Below are positions 54,753 to 63,653 of a DNA stretch of 64,000 nt, piece by piece. How positions within the stretch are numbered: the first letter of the stretch is position 1; each line of letters opens with the position of its first letter. Where the stretch lies: assembly GCF_000379625.1 (NCBI RefSeq), contig NZ_KB903244.1, positions 20,497 to 84,496 on the forward strand, read 5' to 3'. A program made the position numbers and the translations under genes. This DNA is from Actinomycetospora chiangmaiensis DSM 45062 (lineage in GTDB: Bacteria; Actinomycetota; Actinomycetes; Mycobacteriales; Pseudonocardiaceae). The notes under the pieces were generated by a model. That model saw only the letters and a program-made list of their open reading frames with translations, was not told the origin of the DNA and searched no databases.

Positions 54753-55607
54753 TCAGCGCGGGGCGGTGCGCGCGAGGGCGTCCCAGCCCTGGTCCTCGGC
54801 GCGGGCCGCCTCCTCGGCGGCCGCCCCGCCGCGCAGTCCGAAGAGCCGCTTCGCGAAGAGCAGGTATACGACCACCGCGATGTTGATGACGAGTGCGATG
54901 ACCTTCGTCGGGGTCACCCGCCCGGTCAGTTCGTAGATCTCGGGGACGAGCAGCACCGACGTCGCGACGAGCGTGAGGTACTCCGCCCACCGCTTGCCCC
55001 ACCACAGCCCGAGGGCCTCGACGCCCTCGAGCAGCGCGTAGGCCGCGAGGACGAGGCCCACGAGCACGATGGTCCGGTCCTGCGCCGTGAACGCGTTGCG
55101 CAGCTCGCCGACGAACCCGTCCTGCAGGCCCTCGCCGAACCCGATGGTGTTCAGGGTCCCCAGCACCGCGAAGAACGGGGTGCGCAGCGCCGCGCGGTCG
55201 GCGAGGAACACGAACACCCCCACCGCCGCGAGGCCGAGCCCCAGGAAGTGCAGGAGGCGGTCGATCGCGATGAGCCGCAGGACGAAGCGGTCGCGCAGCG
55301 CGCGGCCGCGCAGCGGGAGGTCGACCTCGTCGCGGGTGGGGAGCCGGTCGCGGCTCGGTGCGGCGGGAGGCGGCAGCGGCACCCACGAGTCGCAGCGCAG
55401 GCAGCGGTGCCAGCGGCAGTCCTCGCCCTCCCGGACCACCTGCTCGACCTCGAATCCGGGGTCGGGCGAGTCGAGGACGGCGGCGTCCGTCCCGAGCAGC
55501 TCGTGGCCCCGCAGGCCGCAGGTGATGAGTTCGTAGTGGAACCGCGGCCGGAAGCGGGCGGGTGGGACCGTGCCCGGTGGCCGGGGTACCGCGACCTTCG
55601 TCGTCAC
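54753..55607 (-). CDS. DUF2127 integral membrane protein
   Basis: 284 residues. N-terminal cytosolic segment with CxxC-type Cys (ITCGLRGHELLG; CRWHRCLRCDSWVPLP), then a DUF2127 membrane domain of about four helices: VLRLIAIDRLLHFLGLGLAAVGVFVFLAD, VLVGLVLAAYALLEGVEALGLWWGKRWAEYLTLVATSVLLVPEIYEL, VIALVINIAVVVYLLFAKRLF. The Cys/His N-terminus may bind zinc. Function unknown. Confidence 0.85.
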   Translation of the reverse strand: MTTKVAVPRPPGTVPPARFRPRFHYELITCGLRGHELLGTDAAVLDSPDPGFEVEQVVREGEDCRWHRCLRCDSWVPLPPPAAPSRDRLPTRDEVDLPLRGRALRDRFVLRLIAIDRLLHFLGLGLAAVGVFVFLADRAALRTPFFAVLGTLNTIGFGEGLQDGFVGELRNAFTAQDRTIVLVGLVLAAYALLEGVEALGLWWGKRWAEYLTLVATSVLLVPEIYELTGRVTPTKVIALVINIAVVVYLLFAKRLFGLRGGAAAEEAARAEDQGWDALARTAPR

Positions 55608-55635
55608 CCTGCGATCGTAGGGCCGCGGGGCCGGT

Positions 55636-55980
55636 TCAGACGGCCGGCGCCATCTCCATGACCCCGGCGGTGGGCACGGCCACGGTCTCGACGACCCAGA
55701 CCTGCCCGTCGGTCACGCTCACCGCGTGCGTGCGCACCGGCTTCTTCGCCGGCGGCCCGTCGGGGCGCCCGGTGCGCAGGTCGAAGCAGGCGGCGTGCAA
55801 CGGGCACTCCACCGCGCACCCCTCGAGGAACCCGTCGGAGAGCGACGCGTCCTGATGGGTGCAGGTGTCGTCGATGGCGAACAGCTCGCCCTCGACGTGG
55901 AAGACCGCGATCGCGACCGTCCCCTCCACCCGGACCGACTCGCCGTCGGGGATGTCCGCGAGCTCACCCACGTAGATCAT
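55636..55980 (-). CDS. Rieske [2Fe-2S] ferredoxin of an oxygenase system
   Basis: 114 residues. Rieske ligands in CTHQDASLSDG and CPLHAACFDLRTG (Cys-x-His and Cys-x2-His), with the small-ferredoxin layout of ring-hydroxylating dioxygenases, ending in a short Ala/Pro tail. It carries electrons from the FAD reductase encoded nearby to the oxygenase alpha subunit. Its promoter has the same TTGAC-box and GTTGCG/CGCAAC repeat as those two genes, so the three form one regulated system though on different strands. Confidence 0.93.
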   Translation of the reverse strand: MIYVGELADIPDGESVRVEGTVAIAVFHVEGELFAIDDTCTHQDASLSDGFLEGCAVECPLHAACFDLRTGRPDGPPAKKPVRTHAVSVTDGQVWVVETVAVPTAGVMEMAPAV

Positions 55981-55990
55981 GTCTGCTCCT

Positions 55991-56026
55991 GTTGCGTATT
56001 ACGCGCTCAGTCCTGCGATCCGCAAC
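55991..56026 (-). promoter_or_regulatory. Shared operator, Rieske ferredoxin promoter
   Basis: GTTGCG (55991) and CGCAAC (56021) form an inverted repeat with a 24-base spacer, 10 bases upstream of the ferredoxin ATG. Reading on the minus strand, TTGACG (56053-56058) lies 26 bases before it. The same layout recurs at the reductase and oxygenase promoters. Confidence 0.75.
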
Positions 56027-56213
56027 ACAAGCGTGACGATCCCGGGAAGCGCCGTCAAGGGCGACGGGGGACGATTTCGCGTCCTTCTGTTGCCATTGGA
56101 TGACACGGCTGGTACTCGACTGATATGTCAATACGTCGCCCATGGCAGCGTCATCCGGATGACACACTGCGGGCACGCCCGCGTCCGTCCCGTACTCGTC
56201 GGGGGAAAACCGC

Positions 56214-57647
56214 ATGGTCGACCAGCCGCACCTCTGGCGGCGCGCCGGGGCACCGCCGGCCGTCGAGGGCGAGTACGTGCTGCGCCGGGCCGCGGCCGCC
56301 GCGGCCGTCGGCAACGTCGCGGAGTGGTACGACTTCGGGCTCTACTCCTACCTGGCCGGCACGGTGCTCTCGCGCGTCTTCTTCCCCGACGCCGGCCCGT
56401 GGGCCACCGTCTACACCCTCGGGGCCTTCGCCGCGGCGTTCGTGATGCGCCCCCTCGGCGGCCTCGTCTTCGGGCCGCTCGGCGACCGCGTGGGGCGCAC
56501 GAGGGTCCTCTCCGCCACCGTCGTGCTCATGGCGGCCGCCACGCTCCTGCTCGGCCTCGTGCCGGGGCACGGCACGATCGGCGTCGCCGCGCCCGTGCTG
56601 GTCCTGGTCGTCCGCATGCTGCAGGGCTTCTCGGCGGGCGGGGAGTACACCGGCGCGCTGACGCTCATCGCCGAGTACTCGCCCGACCGGCGACGGGGCT
56701 TCTTCGGCAGCTGGCTGGAGTTCGGGACGTTGACGGGATACACCCTCGGCGCCGGGGCCAGCGCGCTGGTCATCGCCCTGCTGCCCGACGACGCGCTGCT
56801 CGCGTGGGGATGGCGGCTCCCGTTCATGCTGGCGCTCCCGCTCGGCGTGACGGGCATCTACCTGCGGCTGCGCCTGGAGGACACCCCCGCGTTCCGCCAG
56901 CTCATGGACCGCTCCCCCGCGGTCTCGCGGATGCCGCTGCGTCGCGCGCTGCGGATCGTGCTCGTGCGCTACCGCCGGAGCGTGCTCGTCGCCGGCGGCC
57001 TGGTCGTCGCCTGGAACGTCGCGAACTACGTGATGACGAGCTACGTGCCCACCTACCTCACCAGCACGCTCGTGGAGTACGGCGAGGCCGGCAGCGGGAC
57101 GGCCGCGGCCACGGGCCTGCAGGTCGCGGTGATGCTGGGCATGCTGGCGGTGATCACCTCCGTCGGGCGCCTGAGCGACCGCGTGGGCCGCCGGCCGGTC
57201 CTGCTCACCGGCGGCATCGCGCTCGTCGTCACCGGACTGCCCTCGGTGTGGCTGCTCCGCCAGGGGCCGGTCGGCCAGGTCGGCGGGCTCGCGCTGATGG
57301 GCGCATGCCTCGTGTGCTTCGCCGCGGTGGCGCCCTCGACGCTGCCCGCGGTGTTCCCCACGCTGGTGCGCTACGGCGGCCTCGCCCTCACCTTCAACGT
57401 CGCCGTGTCGGTCTTCGCCGGCACCTCGCCCACCGCGATCGCCGCCCTCACCACGGCGACCGGGTACCTCGACTGGGCCGGGTGGTTCCTGGTGGCGGCC
57501 GGGGTCGTCGGGATCGTCAGCGTGGCGTTCCTCCCCGAGAGCGCCGGCCGGCCGCTCGCGGGGGCCCGGCCGCTCGCCTCGAGCGCGGACCTCCCGCCGC
57601 CGGAGCGCTCCCCCGACGGCGTCTTCCTCGAGCACCCCCGGGACTGA
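56214..57647 (+). CDS. MHS-family (ProP-like) metabolite:H+ symporter
   Basis: 477 residues, 12 predicted transmembrane helices. MHS signatures: NVAEWYDFGLYSYLAG, MRPLGGLVFGPLGDRVGRTRVLSATV, LQGFSAGGEYTGALTLIAEYSPDRRRGFFGSWLEFGT, GRLSDRVGRRPVLLTGG. The ProP/betaine-proline branch belongs to this family, fitting uptake of a quaternary amine or amino-acid-like compound. Divergent from the ferredoxin gene; 13 bases from the convergent reductase gene. Confidence 0.9.
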   Translation: MVDQPHLWRRAGAPPAVEGEYVLRRAAAAAAVGNVAEWYDFGLYSYLAGTVLSRVFFPDAGPWATVYTLGAFAAAFVMRPLGGLVFGPLGDRVGRTRVLSATVVLMAAATLLLGLVPGHGTIGVAAPVLVLVVRMLQGFSAGGEYTGALTLIAEYSPDRRRGFFGSWLEFGTLTGYTLGAGASALVIALLPDDALLAWGWRLPFMLALPLGVTGIYLRLRLEDTPAFRQLMDRSPAVSRMPLRRALRIVLVRYRRSVLVAGGLVVAWNVANYVMTSYVPTYLTSTLVEYGEAGSGTAAATGLQVAVMLGMLAVITSVGRLSDRVGRRPVLLTGGIALVVTGLPSVWLLRQGPVGQVGGLALMGACLVCFAAVAPSTLPAVFPTLVRYGGLALTFNVAVSVFAGTSPTAIAALTTATGYLDWAGWFLVAAGVVGIVSVAFLPESAGRPLAGARPLASSADLPPPERSPDGVFLEHPRD

Positions 57648-57660
57648 CCGGGGACCCGCC

Positions 57661-58845
57661 TCAGCGGACGGCGGCGCGGGGCAGCTCGGTGCGGCGGAGC
57701 CGGCCGAAGCCGCGGGGGTCACCCATCGCGAACAGCCCCGTCGTCGTGCCGTCGCCCCCGCGGTACCGGGCGACGAAGCGCCGGTCGTCGACGTCGCCGG
57801 AGAGGACCTCGACCGTGTCCGCGGGGTCAGGGTGCCCGGCGAGCTGGAGCATCCGGCCGTACTGGTCCGACCAGACGTAGCCCGTCGGCGCGACGGTGCG
57901 CACCGTGGTGCCCGCGAGCAGGTTCGTCGCGGCGACCGCGGCCTGCTCCCCCGCGCTGGTCCAGTGCTCGTGCCGGTACGACGACGGGCCGCGCGACCAG
58001 CGGGCGACGTCCCCGACGGCGACGACGGTGGGGACGTCGGTGACCATGCCGTCGTCGGTGCACGCGCCGTTCTCGACCTTCACCCCCGAGCCCTGCAGCC
58101 AGGCCGTGGTGGGCGCGATGCCGACGCCGACGACCACCACGTCCGCGGCGACCTCCCGGCCGTCGCGCAGCCGCACCCCGGTGACCCGCTCCCCCGCCGC
58201 CGTCGTCGCGGTGGCGAACCCGGCGACGACCGCCCCGGTGTGCAGGATGGTGCCGTGCTCGGCGTGGAGGGCCACGCAGGGGCGCGCCACCGTCTCCCCG
58301 AGGACCGGGGAGAGCGGCGTGGTCAGCCCGTCGAGCACGGTGACGTCGAGCCCCAGGCCCCGGCACGTCGAGGCGACCTCCGCCCCGATGAACCCGCCGC
58401 CCACGACGACGACCCGGACGCCCGGGACGAGCTCCGCGCGCAGGCCGCGGGCGTCGTCCAGCGTCCGCAGGACGTGCACGCCCGCGACGCCCTCGGTGCC
58501 GGGCAGCCGCCGGGCGGACCCGCCGGTGGCGACGACGACGCCGTCGGCGTCCACCTCCGCGCCGTCCGCCAGCCGGATCCGCCCGGCGGCGCTGTCCAGG
58601 GCGACGGCCCGGGCGCCGGGGCGCAGGTCGAGCGACAGGTCGGCGAGGTCGTCGTCGTCCAGGAGGGCGAGCTCGGCCTCGTCGGCCCGGCCAGCCAGGT
58701 AGGCCTTGGACAGCGGCGGCCGGTCGTAGGGGGCGTGGGGCTCGTCGCCGAGCAGGACGAGCCTGCCGTCGAACCCGGCCCGCCGCAGGGCCTCCGCCGA
58801 GCGGACCCCCGCGACGGAGGCCCCCACGATCGCGATCGTCTTCAT
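57661..58845 (-). CDS. FAD-dependent ferredoxin reductase of the oxygenase system
   Basis: 394 residues from ATG 58845, TAGGAG upstream. FAD site IAIVGASVAGVRSAEALRRAGFDGRLVLLGDEPHAPYDRPPLSKAYL, NADH site VRVVVVGGGFIGAEVASTCRGLGLDVTVLD, and VVAVGDVARW as the second FAD motif. The C-terminal reductase domain (YVWSDQYGRMLQLAGHPD) places it with oxygenase-coupled ferredoxin reductases. Divergent from the oxygenase alpha gene. Confidence 0.93.
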   Translation of the reverse strand: MKTIAIVGASVAGVRSAEALRRAGFDGRLVLLGDEPHAPYDRPPLSKAYLAGRADEAELALLDDDDLADLSLDLRPGARAVALDSAAGRIRLADGAEVDADGVVVATGGSARRLPGTEGVAGVHVLRTLDDARGLRAELVPGVRVVVVGGGFIGAEVASTCRGLGLDVTVLDGLTTPLSPVLGETVARPCVALHAEHGTILHTGAVVAGFATATTAAGERVTGVRLRDGREVAADVVVVGVGIAPTTAWLQGSGVKVENGACTDDGMVTDVPTVVAVGDVARWSRGPSSYRHEHWTSAGEQAAVAATNLLAGTTVRTVAPTGYVWSDQYGRMLQLAGHPDPADTVEVLSGDVDDRRFVARYRGGDGTTTGLFAMGDPRGFGRLRRTELPRAAVR

Positions 58846-58917
58846 GCGCGCTCCTACGTACGCGGGAGAGACGCCACGGCGCGAACGCGCGGCCGCGGCA
58901 CCGGGGAGAGGACCGAC

Positions 58918-58954
58918 GTTGCGTCCTACGCGCACGTGATCCTTCATGCGCAAC
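58918..58954 (-). promoter_or_regulatory. Shared operator, ferredoxin reductase promoter
   Basis: GTTGCG (58918) and CGCAAC (58949) with a 25-base spacer, 72 bases upstream of the reductase ATG. On the minus strand a TTGACA (58982-58987) lies exactly 27 bases before it, as a mirror image of the neighbouring oxygenase promoter. Confidence 0.8.
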
Positions 58955-59066
58955 ACAGACGGTGGAAGACGCGGACGGCGTTGTCAAGGACCGACCGCCG
59001 GGCGGACATCACGCCCGGAGGGCGAGCAGGCCCTTGACAGGGCTCCCCGGCACCCGGGACGGTGTC

Positions 59067-59103
59067 GTTGCGCGATGAGCAGAGTCGTTCCGGATCGCGC
59101 AAC
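59067..59103 (+). promoter_or_regulatory. Shared operator, oxygenase alpha promoter
   Basis: GTTGCG (59067) and CGCAAC (59098) with a 25-base spacer, 72 bases upstream of the oxygenase ATG, 27 bases after a TTGACA at 59034-59039. The position over the expected transcription start suggests repression. Confidence 0.8.
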
Positions 59104-59175
59104 TCAGCCGCCGAGGTTCCGACATCCCGGAATCCTCCCGCTCGCCCGGCCGACCCCCGTCGAGGAGCACGCACG

Positions 59176-60321
59176 ATGACCACTGGTGAGTTCGTCGGCT
59201 CGATGGCCGACACCCAGCTCCCCGCGAGCCTCCGGGCGACGCTGCCCGGGCGGTACTACACCGACCCGACGATCTTCGCCGCCGAACAGGCGCTCGTCCT
59301 CGAGAGCGGCTGGTTCTGCGCCGTCCTCGCCGCGGACATCCCGGCCGCGGGCGACTTCGAGACGGTGCAGGTGGGGCGCGAGAGCGTGATCGTGGCGCGG
59401 GGCCGCACCGGCGCCGTGCACGCGTACCTCAACGTGTGCCGCCACCGCGGCGCCCGGCTGTGCACCGAGGAGAAGGGGTCGGTGCGGCGGTCCTTCCAGT
59501 GCCCGTACCACGCGTGGACCTACGGTCTCGACGGCACGCTGATCGCGGCCCCGAACATCGCCTCGATGCCCGACATCGACCGCCGTGAGTACGGGCTGAA
59601 CCGCGTCGCGGTGCAGGAGTGGCTCGGCTACGTCTGGGTCTGCCTCGCCGACGAGCCGCCGTCGTTCGACGAGACCGTGGTCGCGGACGTGACGACCCGG
59701 CTGGGCTCCCCCGACGCGATCGTCGGGTACGACGTCGCCGGCCTGAAGCTCGGGCGGCGCATCACCTACGACGTCGCGGCGAACTGGAAGCAGATCGTCG
59801 AGAACTTCATGGAGTGCTACCACTGCGGCACGATCCACCCCGAGCTCACCGAGGTGCTCCCGGAGTTCGCCGACGGCCTCGCCGCGCAGTACTTCGTCGG
59901 GCACGGTGCGGCGTTCGGCGAGGACGTCGCGGGCTTCACCGTCGACGGGTCGGCCGGCCACGAACGGATCCCGGGCGTGGCCGCGGAGCAGGACCGGCGC
60001 TACTACGCGATCACGGTGCGCCCGCAGGTGTTCGTCAACCTGGTGCCCGACCACGTGGTCTTCCACCGCATGTTCCCGCTGACCGCCGCGCGGACGCTCG
60101 TGGTGTGCGACTGGCTCTACCTCCCCGAGGTCGTCGACTCCGGCGCCGACCTCGACCGCTCCGTGGAGCTCTTCCACCGGGTCAACCAGCAGGACTTCGA
60201 CGCCTGCGAGCGGTGCCAGGTCTCGATGGACTCGCGCTCCTACGCCCGCGGCGGGGTGCTGGTGCCCAGCGAGCACCACATCGGGGAGTTCCACGACTGG
60301 GTCCGCGAGCGCGTCGGCTGA
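59176..60321 (+). CDS. Rieske oxygenase alpha subunit, quaternary-amine (GbcA/Stc2/CMO-like) type
   Basis: 381 residues, GAGGAG before the ATG. Rieske centre CRHRGARLC and CPYHAWTYGLDG (Cys-x-His, Cys-x2-His). Mononuclear iron: ENFMECYHCGTIHPEL supplies two His, and NQQDFDACERCQVS the Asp. This spacing and the ECYHC-x3-HPEL block are those of choline monooxygenase, glycine-betaine demethylase and stachydrine demethylase oxygenases rather than aromatic dioxygenases; a beta subunit gene is absent, consistent with this alpha-only group. Substrate inferred from motifs and neighbours. Confidence 0.88.
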   Translation: MTTGEFVGSMADTQLPASLRATLPGRYYTDPTIFAAEQALVLESGWFCAVLAADIPAAGDFETVQVGRESVIVARGRTGAVHAYLNVCRHRGARLCTEEKGSVRRSFQCPYHAWTYGLDGTLIAAPNIASMPDIDRREYGLNRVAVQEWLGYVWVCLADEPPSFDETVVADVTTRLGSPDAIVGYDVAGLKLGRRITYDVAANWKQIVENFMECYHCGTIHPELTEVLPEFADGLAAQYFVGHGAAFGEDVAGFTVDGSAGHERIPGVAAEQDRRYYAITVRPQVFVNLVPDHVVFHRMFPLTAARTLVVCDWLYLPEVVDSGADLDRSVELFHRVNQQDFDACERCQVSMDSRSYARGGVLVPSEHHIGEFHDWVRERVG

Positions 60322-60385
60322 CGCCGCGCTGCCACCCACCCGGCCCGACCCACCCCGCCGCCCCCGCCACCGGACGAGACGAGCC

Positions 60386-60574
60386 ATGACTGCCGACCCG
60401 GACCCCGCCTCCCGCCCGCTCGACACCGAGCCCCTCGCCGACGCCTTCGCGGTGGCCGACCAGCTCGCCGTCCACGGCCACGACTGCGTGTGCCCCCGGT
60501 GCGCGGGGCGCCTGCCGTTCCTGCTGCGCGACCTCGCGCGCGCGCTCGACACGGCCGACGACGGCGACCGGTAG
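60386..60574 (+). CDS. Small Cys-motif protein of the oxygenase cluster
   Basis: 62 residues between the oxygenase and iclR genes. Contains CVCPRCAGRLPFLLRDLARALD, a CxCxxC that could bind zinc, in an otherwise helical acidic protein. The ATG has a weak purine-rich upstream (GACGAGACGAG). Ten bases from the IclR start. Function unknown. Confidence 0.6.
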   Translation: MTADPDPASRPLDTEPLADAFAVADQLAVHGHDCVCPRCAGRLPFLLRDLARALDTADDGDR

Positions 60575-60584
60575 CCTCCGGCCG

Positions 60585-61382
60585 ATGTCGGAGTCGCGCG
60601 ACGTCGCGCCGGACCGGGGCGGCAAGGTCGGCGCGGTCCAGTCGGTCGACCGGGCGATGGCCATCCTCGAGATCATCGCGGAGCGGGGCGAGGCCGGGAT
60701 CTCCGACATCGCCGCGGCGCTCGACGTCCACAAGTCGACGGCCTCGCGCCTGGTCGCGGCGCTGGAGCACCGGTCCCTGGTCGAGCAGCACGGCGAGCGC
60801 GGGAAGTACGCGCTGAGCTTCGGCCTCATCCGGCTCGCGGCCGCCACGACGGCGCGGCTCGACGTCGCCCGCCTCGGGCAGCCCGTCTGCCGGCGCCTCG
60901 CCGACTCGCTCGGGGAGACGGTGAACATCGCCGTCAGCGACGGGGAGGCCGGGATCACCGTCGCCCAGGAGAGCGGGACCGCGTCCGTCGTCAGCGAGAA
61001 CTGGGTCGGCCGGCGGACCCCGCTGCACGCGAGCTCGGCCGGCAAGGTCCTGCTCGCCTGGATGGAGACCGAGGACCGGCGCCGCGTCCTGCGCCGCCCC
61101 CTGCAGCGCTTCACCGAGGAGACGATCGTGACGCCGGGGGCGCTGCGCCTCGAGCTCGCCCGCGTGTTCGACGAGGGCTTCGCGCGCTCCTTCGAGGAGC
61201 TCGAGGTGGGCATGCACGCCGTCGCGGTGCCGGTGTTCTCGGCCGACGGCACCGTCGGGTCGTCCCTGTCCGTCACGGGCCCGGCCTACCGGTTGCCGCG
61301 ACGGCGGGCCCGGGCCGTCGTCGGCGAGCTCAGGGAGGGCGCGGCGGAGATCGCCGCGAAGCTCGGCCACCACACGTCCTGA
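60585..61382 (+). CDS. IclR-family transcriptional regulator
   Basis: 265 residues. Winged helix at the N-terminus: VQSVDRAMAILEIIAERGEAGISDIAAALDVHKSTASRLVAALEHRSLVEQHGERGKYALSFGLIRL. The effector domain contains GETVNIAVSDGEAGITVAQESG, HASSAGKVLLAWM, and GFARSFEELEVGMHAVAVPVFSADGTVGSSLSVTGPAYRL. IclR proteins bind paired inverted repeats as dimers or tetramers, fitting the three GTTGCG/CGCAAC sites nearby. Confidence 0.93.
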   Translation: MSESRDVAPDRGGKVGAVQSVDRAMAILEIIAERGEAGISDIAAALDVHKSTASRLVAALEHRSLVEQHGERGKYALSFGLIRLAAATTARLDVARLGQPVCRRLADSLGETVNIAVSDGEAGITVAQESGTASVVSENWVGRRTPLHASSAGKVLLAWMETEDRRRVLRRPLQRFTEETIVTPGALRLELARVFDEGFARSFEELEVGMHAVAVPVFSADGTVGSSLSVTGPAYRLPRRRARAVVGELREGAAEIAAKLGHHTS

Positions 61383-61420
61383 CGACGGCTCCCGCGCCGA
61401 CCCGCCGTCGGGAACTCCGG

Positions 61421-62269
61421 TCAGCGCAGGACGACCGTGCTGTGGCCGTCGAGCAGCACCCGGTGCTGGCAGTGCCAGCGCACCGCGCGCGAGAGCGCGA
61501 GCGCCTCGGCGTCTCGGCCGACCATCTGGAGGGCGTGCGGGTCGTAGGAGTGGTCGATCCGGATGACCTCCTGCTCGATGATGGGGCCCTCGTCGAGGTC
61601 GGCGGTGACGTAGTGGGCGGTGGCCCCGACGAGCTTGACGCCGCGGTCGTAGGCCTGGTGGTAGGGCTTGGCGCCCTTGAAGCCCGGCAGGAACGAGTGG
61701 TGGATGTTGATCACCCGGCCGCGCAGCGCCGTGCACGTCGCGTCGGAGAGGATCTGCATGTAGCGGGCGAGCACCACCAGGTCCGCGTCCAGCGTCTCGA
61801 CCAGGGCGAGGAGCTCCGCCTCGGCGTCGGCCTTGCCCGCGGGCGTCACCGGCAGGTGGACGAAGGGCAGCCCGGCGGCCTCGGCCATCGACCGCAGGTC
61901 CTCGTGGTTGGACACGACCCCCACGAGCTCGGCGTCCAGCCCGCCGGTGCGCCACCGGTAGATGAGGTCGTTCAGGCAGTGGCCGAGCTTCGAGACCATC
62001 ACGAGGACCCGCACCGCGCGGGCCGGGTGGAACGTGTGCTCCATGTCGAAGGTGGCGGCGACCGCGTCGAAGCCCGCCGCCACCTCGTCGACCGTCATGC
62101 CGTCCGGCACGGCGATCGCGGTCCGCATGAAGAGCCGTCGGCGCACCGGGTCGTCGAACTGCTGGTGCTCCACGATGTCGCACCCGCGCGCGGCGAGGTG
62201 GGCAGCGACCGCGTGGACGATGCCGCTGCGGTTCGGGCAGGTCAGGGTGAGGGTCAGCGTGTCGGTCAT
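61421..62269 (-). CDS. purU: Formyltetrahydrofolate deformylase
   Basis: 282 residues: N-terminal ACT domain (LTLTCPNRSGIVHAVAAHLAARGCDIVEHQQFDD) and the formyl-hydrolase domain with VVSNHEDL, HLPVTPAGK, VLARYMQILS, and INIHHSFLPGFKGAKPYHQAYDRGVKLVGATAHYVTADLDEGPII including the catalytic Asn/His/Asp set. Releases formate from formyl-THF, recycling THF. In glycine betaine catabolism a purU copy is often found next to demethylation genes. Starts 10 bases from the sdaA stop. Confidence 0.96.
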   Translation of the reverse strand: MTDTLTLTLTCPNRSGIVHAVAAHLAARGCDIVEHQQFDDPVRRRLFMRTAIAVPDGMTVDEVAAGFDAVAATFDMEHTFHPARAVRVLVMVSKLGHCLNDLIYRWRTGGLDAELVGVVSNHEDLRSMAEAAGLPFVHLPVTPAGKADAEAELLALVETLDADLVVLARYMQILSDATCTALRGRVINIHHSFLPGFKGAKPYHQAYDRGVKLVGATAHYVTADLDEGPIIEQEVIRIDHSYDPHALQMVGRDAEALALSRAVRWHCQHRVLLDGHSTVVLR

Positions 62270-62279
62270 GATCGTCTCC

Positions 62280-63653
62280 TCAGCACTCCACGACGGTGAG
62301 AGCCAGACCCCCGCGGGCCGTCTCCTTGTACTTGACCGACATGTCGGCCCCGGTCCGGCGCATCGTCGCGATGGCCTGGTCGAGCGAGATGTGGTGCGCG
62401 CCGTCGCCGCGCACGGCCATCCGCGCCGCGGTGATGGCCTTCGCCGAGGCGACCGCGTTGCGCTCGATGCAGGGGACCTGCACGAGTCCGCCCACCGGAT
62501 CGCAGGTGAGCCCGAGGTTGTGCTCGATCCCGATCTCGGCGGCGTTCTCCACCTGCTCGGGTGTGCCCCCGAGGAGCTCGGCGAGCCCGGCGGCCGCCAT
62601 CGAGCAGGCGGACCCGACCTCCCCCTGGCACCCGACCTCCGCCCCGGAGATCGAGGCGTTGCGCTTGAACAGCATCCCGACGGCCCCGGCCGTGAGCAGG
62701 AACCGGACGACGTGGTCGTCGGAGAAGGCGGGCAGCACCTGCGCGGCGTGGTGCAGCACCGCGGGGACGATCCCGGCGGCCCCGTTGGTCGGGGCGGTGA
62801 CGACGCGGCCCCCGGCGGCGTTCTCCTCGTTGACCGCGAGCGCCCACAGCGCGACGTGGTCGCCGGGCTGGGTGTCGAGCCCGGCCGCGGCGTCCGCCTC
62901 GAGGCGACGGCGCATGGCCGCGGCGCGACGCCGGACCCGCAGGCCCCCGGGCAGCACCCCCTCCGCGGACGTCCCCCGCTCGACGCACTCGCGCATCACC
63001 GCCCAGCGGTGGAGCAGGCCGGCGCGGGTCTCGGTCTCGCTCCGCCACGCCGCCTCGTTCGTGAGGACCACGTCGCTGACGCGCAGGCCGGTCGCCCGTG
63101 CGCGGGCGACGAGTTCGTCGCCGGAGGCGAACGGGTGGGCGACGGGGACGTCCGCCCCGGGCAGCACGGGTCGGCCGGTCTCGTCCTCGTCGAGGACGAA
63201 CCCGCCGCCGACCGAGTAGTACTCGCGGCGCTCGACGACGGCCTCGTGCGCGTCGCAGGCGGTGAACACCATCCCGTTGCTGTGGAACGGCAGGGTCGCC
63301 GTGCGGTGGAGCACGACGTCGGTGTCGACGTCGAAGGCGACGGGGTGCTTGCCGGCCAGCAGGAGCGACCGCTCGGCCCGCACCGCCGCGACGGCCGGAC
63401 CGGTGGTCGCCGGGTCCACCAGGTGGGGCTGCTCCCCCAGCAGGCCGAGCACGACGGCGGGCACGCTGCCGTGCCCGTGCCCGGTGGCGCCCAGCGAGCC
63501 GAACAGCTCGCAGCGCAGTCCGTCGACCCGCTCCAGCAGCCCGGACTCCCGCAGCCGCGTGGCGAACCGGAACGCGGCCCGCATGGGACCCACCGTGTGC
63601 GAGGAGGACGGACCGATCCCGACCTTGAAGAGGTCGAACACCGAGAGGCTCAT
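62280..63653 (-). CDS. sdaA: L-serine ammonia-lyase, iron-sulphur type, single chain
   Basis: 457 residues containing both beta (N-terminal, [27 protein letters not shown]) and alpha (C-terminal) domains. Cluster cysteines: [22 protein letters not shown], and [22 protein letters not shown]. Converts serine to pyruvate and ammonia. Placed upstream of purU on the minus strand; together they would drain glycine/serine and C1 units from demethylation. AGGAGA precedes the ATG. Confidence 0.96.

Follow-up and report, generated by a model that had tools for sequence, protein, structure and literature searches.

In a 64,000-nucleotide stretch of the genome of Actinomycetospora chiangmaiensis DSM 45062 (contig NZ_KB903244.1, positions 20,497 to 84,496; the whole stretch is called the window below), the genes for a Rieske oxygenase, a Rieske ferredoxin and a ferredoxin reductase are each preceded by a promoter directly followed by a pair of adjoining 17-bp palindromes (Table 1). 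We consider it highly probable that these pairs are tandem operators of the IclR family: the IclR-type protein encoded nearby at 60585, or its paralogue, would bind all three, repress the oxygenase, ferredoxin and reductase genes and release them in response to the substrate of the pathway or an intermediate. The gene set found under these operators is widespread in actinobacteria and, it seems, little studied.

Anatomy and conservation of the tandem palindromes

The first-pass annotation of this DNA had described three promoters on the plan TTGACA-spacer-GTTGCG-N25-CGCAAC, and re-measurement by script reproduced its spacings exactly: TTGACA, 27 bases, GTTGCG, 25 bases, CGCAAC, 72 bases and ATG at the oxygenase gene, the same series on the minus strand at the reductase gene, and TTGACG with spacings of 26, 24 and 10 at the ferredoxin gene. 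GTTGCG-N20-30-CGCAAC occurs three times in the window, where 0.02 occurrences are expected, and three were reached in none of 100 shuffles. Thirty-five distinct sites of other genera yield the consensus GTTGCGTATnaCGgAaC-nn-GtTcCGtnATACGCAAC; each 17-mer half is palindromic by itself, with the consensus GTTGCGTATnACGGAAC derived from 70 17-mers of other genera, and the GTTGCG...CGCAAC repeat is therefore the outer edge of two adjoining palindromes. The outer arms are firmer than the inner ones, in part because the training sites were picked by their exact outer arms. A matrix trained on other genera, with Actinomycetospora left out and centre spacings of 19-20, has the three operators as its sole matches in the window (scores in Table 1), against 1.7 for the next-best place and 8.6 for the top of six shuffles.

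As to the mirror symmetry, the oxygenase and reductase promoters had been taken for exact mirror images that arose by duplication of a whole promoter block in inverted orientation. The equality of the spacings (27/25/72 on both strands) stands, and it is the one feature that speaks for a recent inverted duplication of a single promoter. However, it is absent from all seven sister loci in which both promoters are readable (L011, L012, L100, L101, L103, L104 and L105, of which L012 and L100 may be one genome); the triplets are, for example, 28/25/71 with 27/25/70 in one locus and 27/24/72 with 28/25/91 in another. Moreover, outside TTGACA and the arms the two blocks are identical at only 33 of 124 positions, while shuffled sequences give a mean of 36.8. 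With flanks no better than shuffled and triplets unequal in the sister loci, the duplication was rejected and is hardly credible. The reductase and oxygenase genes are divergently transcribed and have a common operator, so their promoters must look mirrored, and the exact equality of the spacings is a matter of chance within the narrow range fixed by promoter and operator.

The sites were followed in the loci of the best 80 of at least 585 oxygenase relatives, with centre spacings of 18-21 bp scanned. A score of 15 or more is reached by 225 sites in these loci, every locus having one or more, and the centres are 19 bp apart in 203 of the sites; the loci shuffled in 200-bp blocks (1.28 Mb) gave one match at score 12 and none at 15. 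The exact arms alone, with spacers of 24-25, are present in 43 of the 80 loci. The occurrence of a site in all 80 loci is partly built in, since the exact-arm sites used to train the 17-mer matrix came from 76 loci that were afterwards scanned themselves (39 of the 76 have such a site at spacers of 24-25); the matrix test in the window and the gene-by-gene contrasts are free of this circularity. When genes too close to the end of a locus are left out, a site lies within 400 bp upstream of 60 of the 61 ferredoxin genes, 37 of the 60 reductase genes and 7 of the 8 symporter genes, and of none of the 20 serine ammonia-lyase genes; one intergenic site is sometimes common to several counted genes. 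The conservation in related genomes, which had been proposed as a check of the pattern, is thus borne out. Profile R1, whose sensitivity falls short of that of the paired 17-mer matrix, matched all 18 genomes of the genus at E 1 or better; its class-wide run over 98 genomes, with stricter filters and cut-off, gave matches in at least three genomes, all three oxygenase-bearing, and none in the genome of A. chiangmaiensis.

The register with the promoter is conserved as well. TTGACA or TTGACG stands 22-29 bp before 127 of the 225 sites (either strand), against 7 of 4800 random positions (one strand), and in those 127 cases a hexamer tending to CA...T follows about 17 bp after it, the operator coming directly behind. 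The -10-like hexamers of the three window promoters were assigned by analogy with this pattern; the window operators, as read from the sequence, begin 3-4 bp past them.

Candidate regulator and mode of action

The protein encoded at 60585 belongs to the IclR family (HTH_IclR, 56 bits with a cut-off of 22; IclR_C, 129 bits with a cut-off of 24). The first-pass annotation had proposed that the repeat is the binding site of a common regulator, most likely this protein, and the genes that carry the site in relatives argue for the same. With genes near locus ends again left out, a site precedes 33 of 45 IclR genes within 400 bp and 35 of 45 in a slightly wider frame, whereas it precedes none of 36 GntR-like and none of 9 TetR-like genes (relatives of genes of the Amycolatopsis palatopharyngis locus, with family labels given from the look of the sequence). 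Regulators of the latter two kinds are seen near the oxygenase gene in Amycolatopsis and occur in the clusters of the relatives (TetR-like genes in 9 and GntR-like genes in 34 of the 80 loci), but this contrast, together with the match of the 17-mer to the IclR class outlined in the main text of PMC8222616, makes it very improbable that a member of either family binds the repeat.

Forty-eight IclR sequences, chosen by similarity to that of the window, were aligned; the recognition helix reads VHKS(T/S)..RL in 46 of the 47 that have letters there and VHRST in the remaining one. A sample of 98 genomes of the class contained 10 with the oxygenase (E 1e-110) and 13 with the IclR orthologue (E 1e-55). 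Every oxygenase-bearing genome, A. chiangmaiensis counted, is among the 13, and the two genes lie no more than 6.5 kb apart in each of these 10; the related genomes in these counts are not independent, so that their significance by Fisher's test is overstated, and in gene-rich genomes only some of the first-look candidates were scored in the class-wide protein searches. The IclR gene is absent from the fetched DNA of 37 loci. Eighteen of these, in 17 genomes, were examined: all 17 genomes have an IclR orthologue further off, 49-55% identical, and in 11 of them the best orthologue has a site scoring at least 18 within 250 bp on its 5' side. No site was found at eight less similar IclR genes, four of them from the genome of A. 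chiangmaiensis and four from relatives. On these sequence comparisons the IclR protein at 60585, or a paralogue 71% identical to it, is well supported as the best candidate for the binder of the three sites.

The paralogue (L107:8517-9392; C27:268543-269295) has nearly the same recognition-helix letters as the protein of the window, and for this reason, as well as for its 71% identity, it comes first among other IclR-family proteins that might bind the tandem operators, alone or with the local one. We regard this as improbable, because no operator at score 10 was found in the 18 kb around the paralogue, IclR is the only one of the nine window proteins used as queries that has a homologue in the 3.75 kb around it, and the close linkage of oxygenase and IclR orthologue in 10 of 10 genomes speaks for the local gene.

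As for the action of the local IclR protein or its paralogue, the centres of the two 17-bp palindromes are separated by 19-20 bp, close to two turns of the helix, a spacing that lets two IclR dimers occupy the same face of the DNA. Since the operator begins just past the -10-like hexamer of what appears to be a sigma-70-type promoter, it should cover the transcription start, and a protein bound there would block RNA polymerase. The oxygenase, ferredoxin and reductase genes of a demethylase of the glycine betaine type would thereby be kept off until the protein senses the substrate or an intermediate and lets go. The IclR gene follows the oxygenase gene in the same orientation, and if the two are co-transcribed, the IclR protein probably restricts its own synthesis as well. 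Activators are known in the IclR family; activation from these sites instead of repression is nevertheless quite improbable, as the place of the operator over the predicted start would be a blocking one.

Several observations weigh against repression by the local IclR protein through these sites. In the window itself, the two halves of each pair score unequally, the IclR gene has no operator directly before it, and a scan for plain TTGACA/TATAAT promoters and for terminators found neither here, although an empty promoter scan may be expected at such high G+C. Profile R1 recovered only two of the three window sites in the genome, one of them at E 0.82, and missed the oxygenase site, and weak R1 matches also lie on other contigs of genomes of the genus. 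In the relatives, a site stands within 400 bp upstream of only 31 of 80 oxygenase genes and 9 of 37 PurU genes; 98 of the 225 sites have no TTGACA/G at 22-29 bp, and such a -35 hexamer was found at none of the 55 IclR-side sites. As for the regulator, the oxygenase was not found in 3 of the 13 IclR-bearing genomes, the best orthologue has no adjacent 5' site in 6 of the 17 genomes mentioned above, and the second IclR protein could bind instead of the local one or beside it.

Genes, pathway and further sites

The genes of the locus and the elements discussed above are collected in Table 1. The closest relative among the matches listed is Actinomycetospora sp. NBRC 106378, whose oxygenase is 94% identical. 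The best family of the oxygenase is the glycine betaine monooxygenase GbcA, at 230.2 bits and thus far below the NCBIfam equivalog cut-off of 670; among solved structures its best relatives are 3vca, deposited under the name of a ring-hydroxylating dioxygenase, and 4qup, deposited under that of a monooxygenase/demethylase. Judged purely by its genomic context, the oxygenase probably acts like GbcA.

Table 1. Coordinates (positions in the window) of genes, promoters and operators
Feature	Position	Strand	Basis or details
Rieske [2Fe-2S] ferredoxin gene	55636..55980	-	family search
Ferredoxin operator	55991..56026 (36 bp)	-	17-mers 55991-56007 and 56010-56026, centres 19 bp apart; score 36.9
Ferredoxin promoter	56030..56058	-	-35 TTGACG 56053-56058, N17, -10-like CACGCT 56030-56035
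MHS/ProP-like metabolite-proton symporter gene	56214..57647	+	ProP 419.9 bits, below cut-off of 544
FAD ferredoxin reductase gene	57661..58845	-	family search
Reductase operator	58918..58954 (37 bp)	-	17-mers 58918-58934 and 58938-58954, centres 20 bp apart; score 31.5
Reductase promoter	58959..58987	-	-35 TTGACA 58982-58987, N17, -10-like CACCGT 58959-58964
Oxygenase promoter	59034..59063	+	-35 TTGACA 59034-59039, N18, -10-like GACGGT 59058-59063
Oxygenase operator	59067..59103 (37 bp)	+	17-mers 59067-59083 and 59087-59103, centres 20 bp apart; score 27.8
Rieske oxygenase gene (GbcA/demethylase type)	59176..60321	+	family and structure matches
Small conserved gene, 62 aa, CxCPxC	60386..60574	+	between oxygenase and IclR genes
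Gene for the IclR-family regulator proposed to bind the three operators	60585..61382	+	domain and family matches
Formyltetrahydrofolate deformylase gene (PurU)	61421..62269	-	310.3 bits, cut-off 285.95
L-serine ammonia-lyase gene	62280..63653	-	646.2 bits, cut-off 345.1

Glycine betaine is degraded through dimethylglycine, sarcosine, glycine and serine to pyruvate. The genome has a single soxB gene above the cut-off, located at 91768-92925 of this contig, some 7 kb past the right end of the window, and the neighbourhood in A. palatopharyngis (L020) contains soxB, soxD, serine hydroxymethyltransferase and S-(hydroxymethyl)mycothiol dehydrogenase genes above their cut-offs and a betaine-aldehyde-dehydrogenase-like gene slightly under its own. 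The gene set of the window and of L020 fits a route from glycine betaine to pyruvate, and it is from this genomic context that we infer glycine betaine as the substrate. No operator scoring 5 or more was found in either L091, the flank with the soxB gene, or the flank L092. In the Streptomyces clusters L042, L046 and L051, PurU genes too are preceded by tandem sites, as is a mycothiol-dependent formaldehyde dehydrogenase-like gene in L042, and the regulon therefore looks wider in these clusters.

The genome of A. chiangmaiensis (5.86 Mb in 31 contigs) was scanned by exact arms and by profile R1. It has 10 GTTGCG-N20-30-CGCAAC places, and among the seven outside the window one (C3:40678) scores like the window sites; the occurrence of the motif at many unrelated genes, which the first-pass annotation had named as evidence against its proposal, was not seen. 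This fourth element (L108:7679-7715; C3:40678-40714; score 24.4-25.0) consists of TTGACG-N17-CACGGT directly followed by GTTGCG-N25-CGCAAC, lies before a 70-aa gene and beside a polyhydroxyalkanoate synthase-like gene, and has a counterpart scoring at least 10 in 9 of the 12 genus loci examined (that of A. chiangmaiensis included). Its inner letters differ (GTTGCGTAGAGCGCG), and a different IclR-type protein may therefore bind it.

A much broader proposal, which we hold to be unlikely as a whole, is that one IclR-family repressor, by means of double operators embedded in promoters in a nearly fixed register with -35 and -10, governs the conversion of glycine betaine, or of a related methylated amine, into pyruvate as an undescribed actinobacterial regulon, and that in Actinomycetospora the paralogue and the sister operator by the polyhydroxyalkanoate synthase gene link this catabolism to carbon storage. 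Short of that, a demethylation pathway found across many actinobacteria is provided with a probable regulator, an operator of 36 bp whose consensus is clear, and a promoter register; newly sequenced genomes could be searched for the pathway by means of the operator, which also opens the inducer to direct testing.

Some smaller features of the locus may be added. The 62-aa CxCPxC gene at 60386-60574 recurs in several Actinomycetospora loci and is without a Pfam family; homology of its product to a second small CxCPxC protein (L108:7753-7965) was considered and found unsupported, with six residues aligned at E 0.11. A perfect palindrome, GTCATCCGGATGAC, lies at 56150-56163 between the ferredoxin operator and the symporter gene, and its pattern GTCAT-N2-6-ATGAC was not found in six other loci, two of them short. 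An Rfam scan of 55500-61600 gave no family at the gathering score.

Comparison with known IclR-family systems

A literature search at the level of titles and abstract openings found no regulon of betaine demethylation in actinobacteria. The survey of IclR-family sites by Suvorova and Gelfand (2021; PMC8222616), which covers 94 orthologous groups, does not mention betaine, Rieske or sarcosine in its main text; its supplements may list the group. The best NCBIfam match of the IclR protein of the window is BhcR of Paracoccus denitrificans, but at 168.8 bits, with a cut-off of 350, it is not BhcR. For BhcR itself the proposed site lies upstream of the -35, and glyoxylate weakens the binding, according to the portion of PMC11323563 that deals with it. 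In the operator of TphR from Comamonas sp. E6 (Table 1 of PMC8222616), the core TTGCGCATAGCGCAA is closely like one 17-mer of our element, whereas that operator serves terephthalate genes and is given there as a single palindrome.

The closest likeness is to the group 1 sites described in the main text of PMC8222616, GTTYCRYW3RYGRAAC (GTT-11-AAC), which also occur in tandem, 18-22 bp from centre to centre, an arrangement interpreted there as the binding of a tetramer on one face of the DNA. The element of the window shares with this class the 17-bp palindrome, GTT-N11-AAC with CG..CG inside, to which its halves conform unevenly, and the tandem spacing, 19, 20 and 20 bp between centres. It differs in its weaker inner arms and in its outer arms GTTGCG, whose fourth position is G instead of the Y of the class. 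The tandem IclR operator is thus a type already known and, as judged by its letters and spacing, the element of the window is of that kind.

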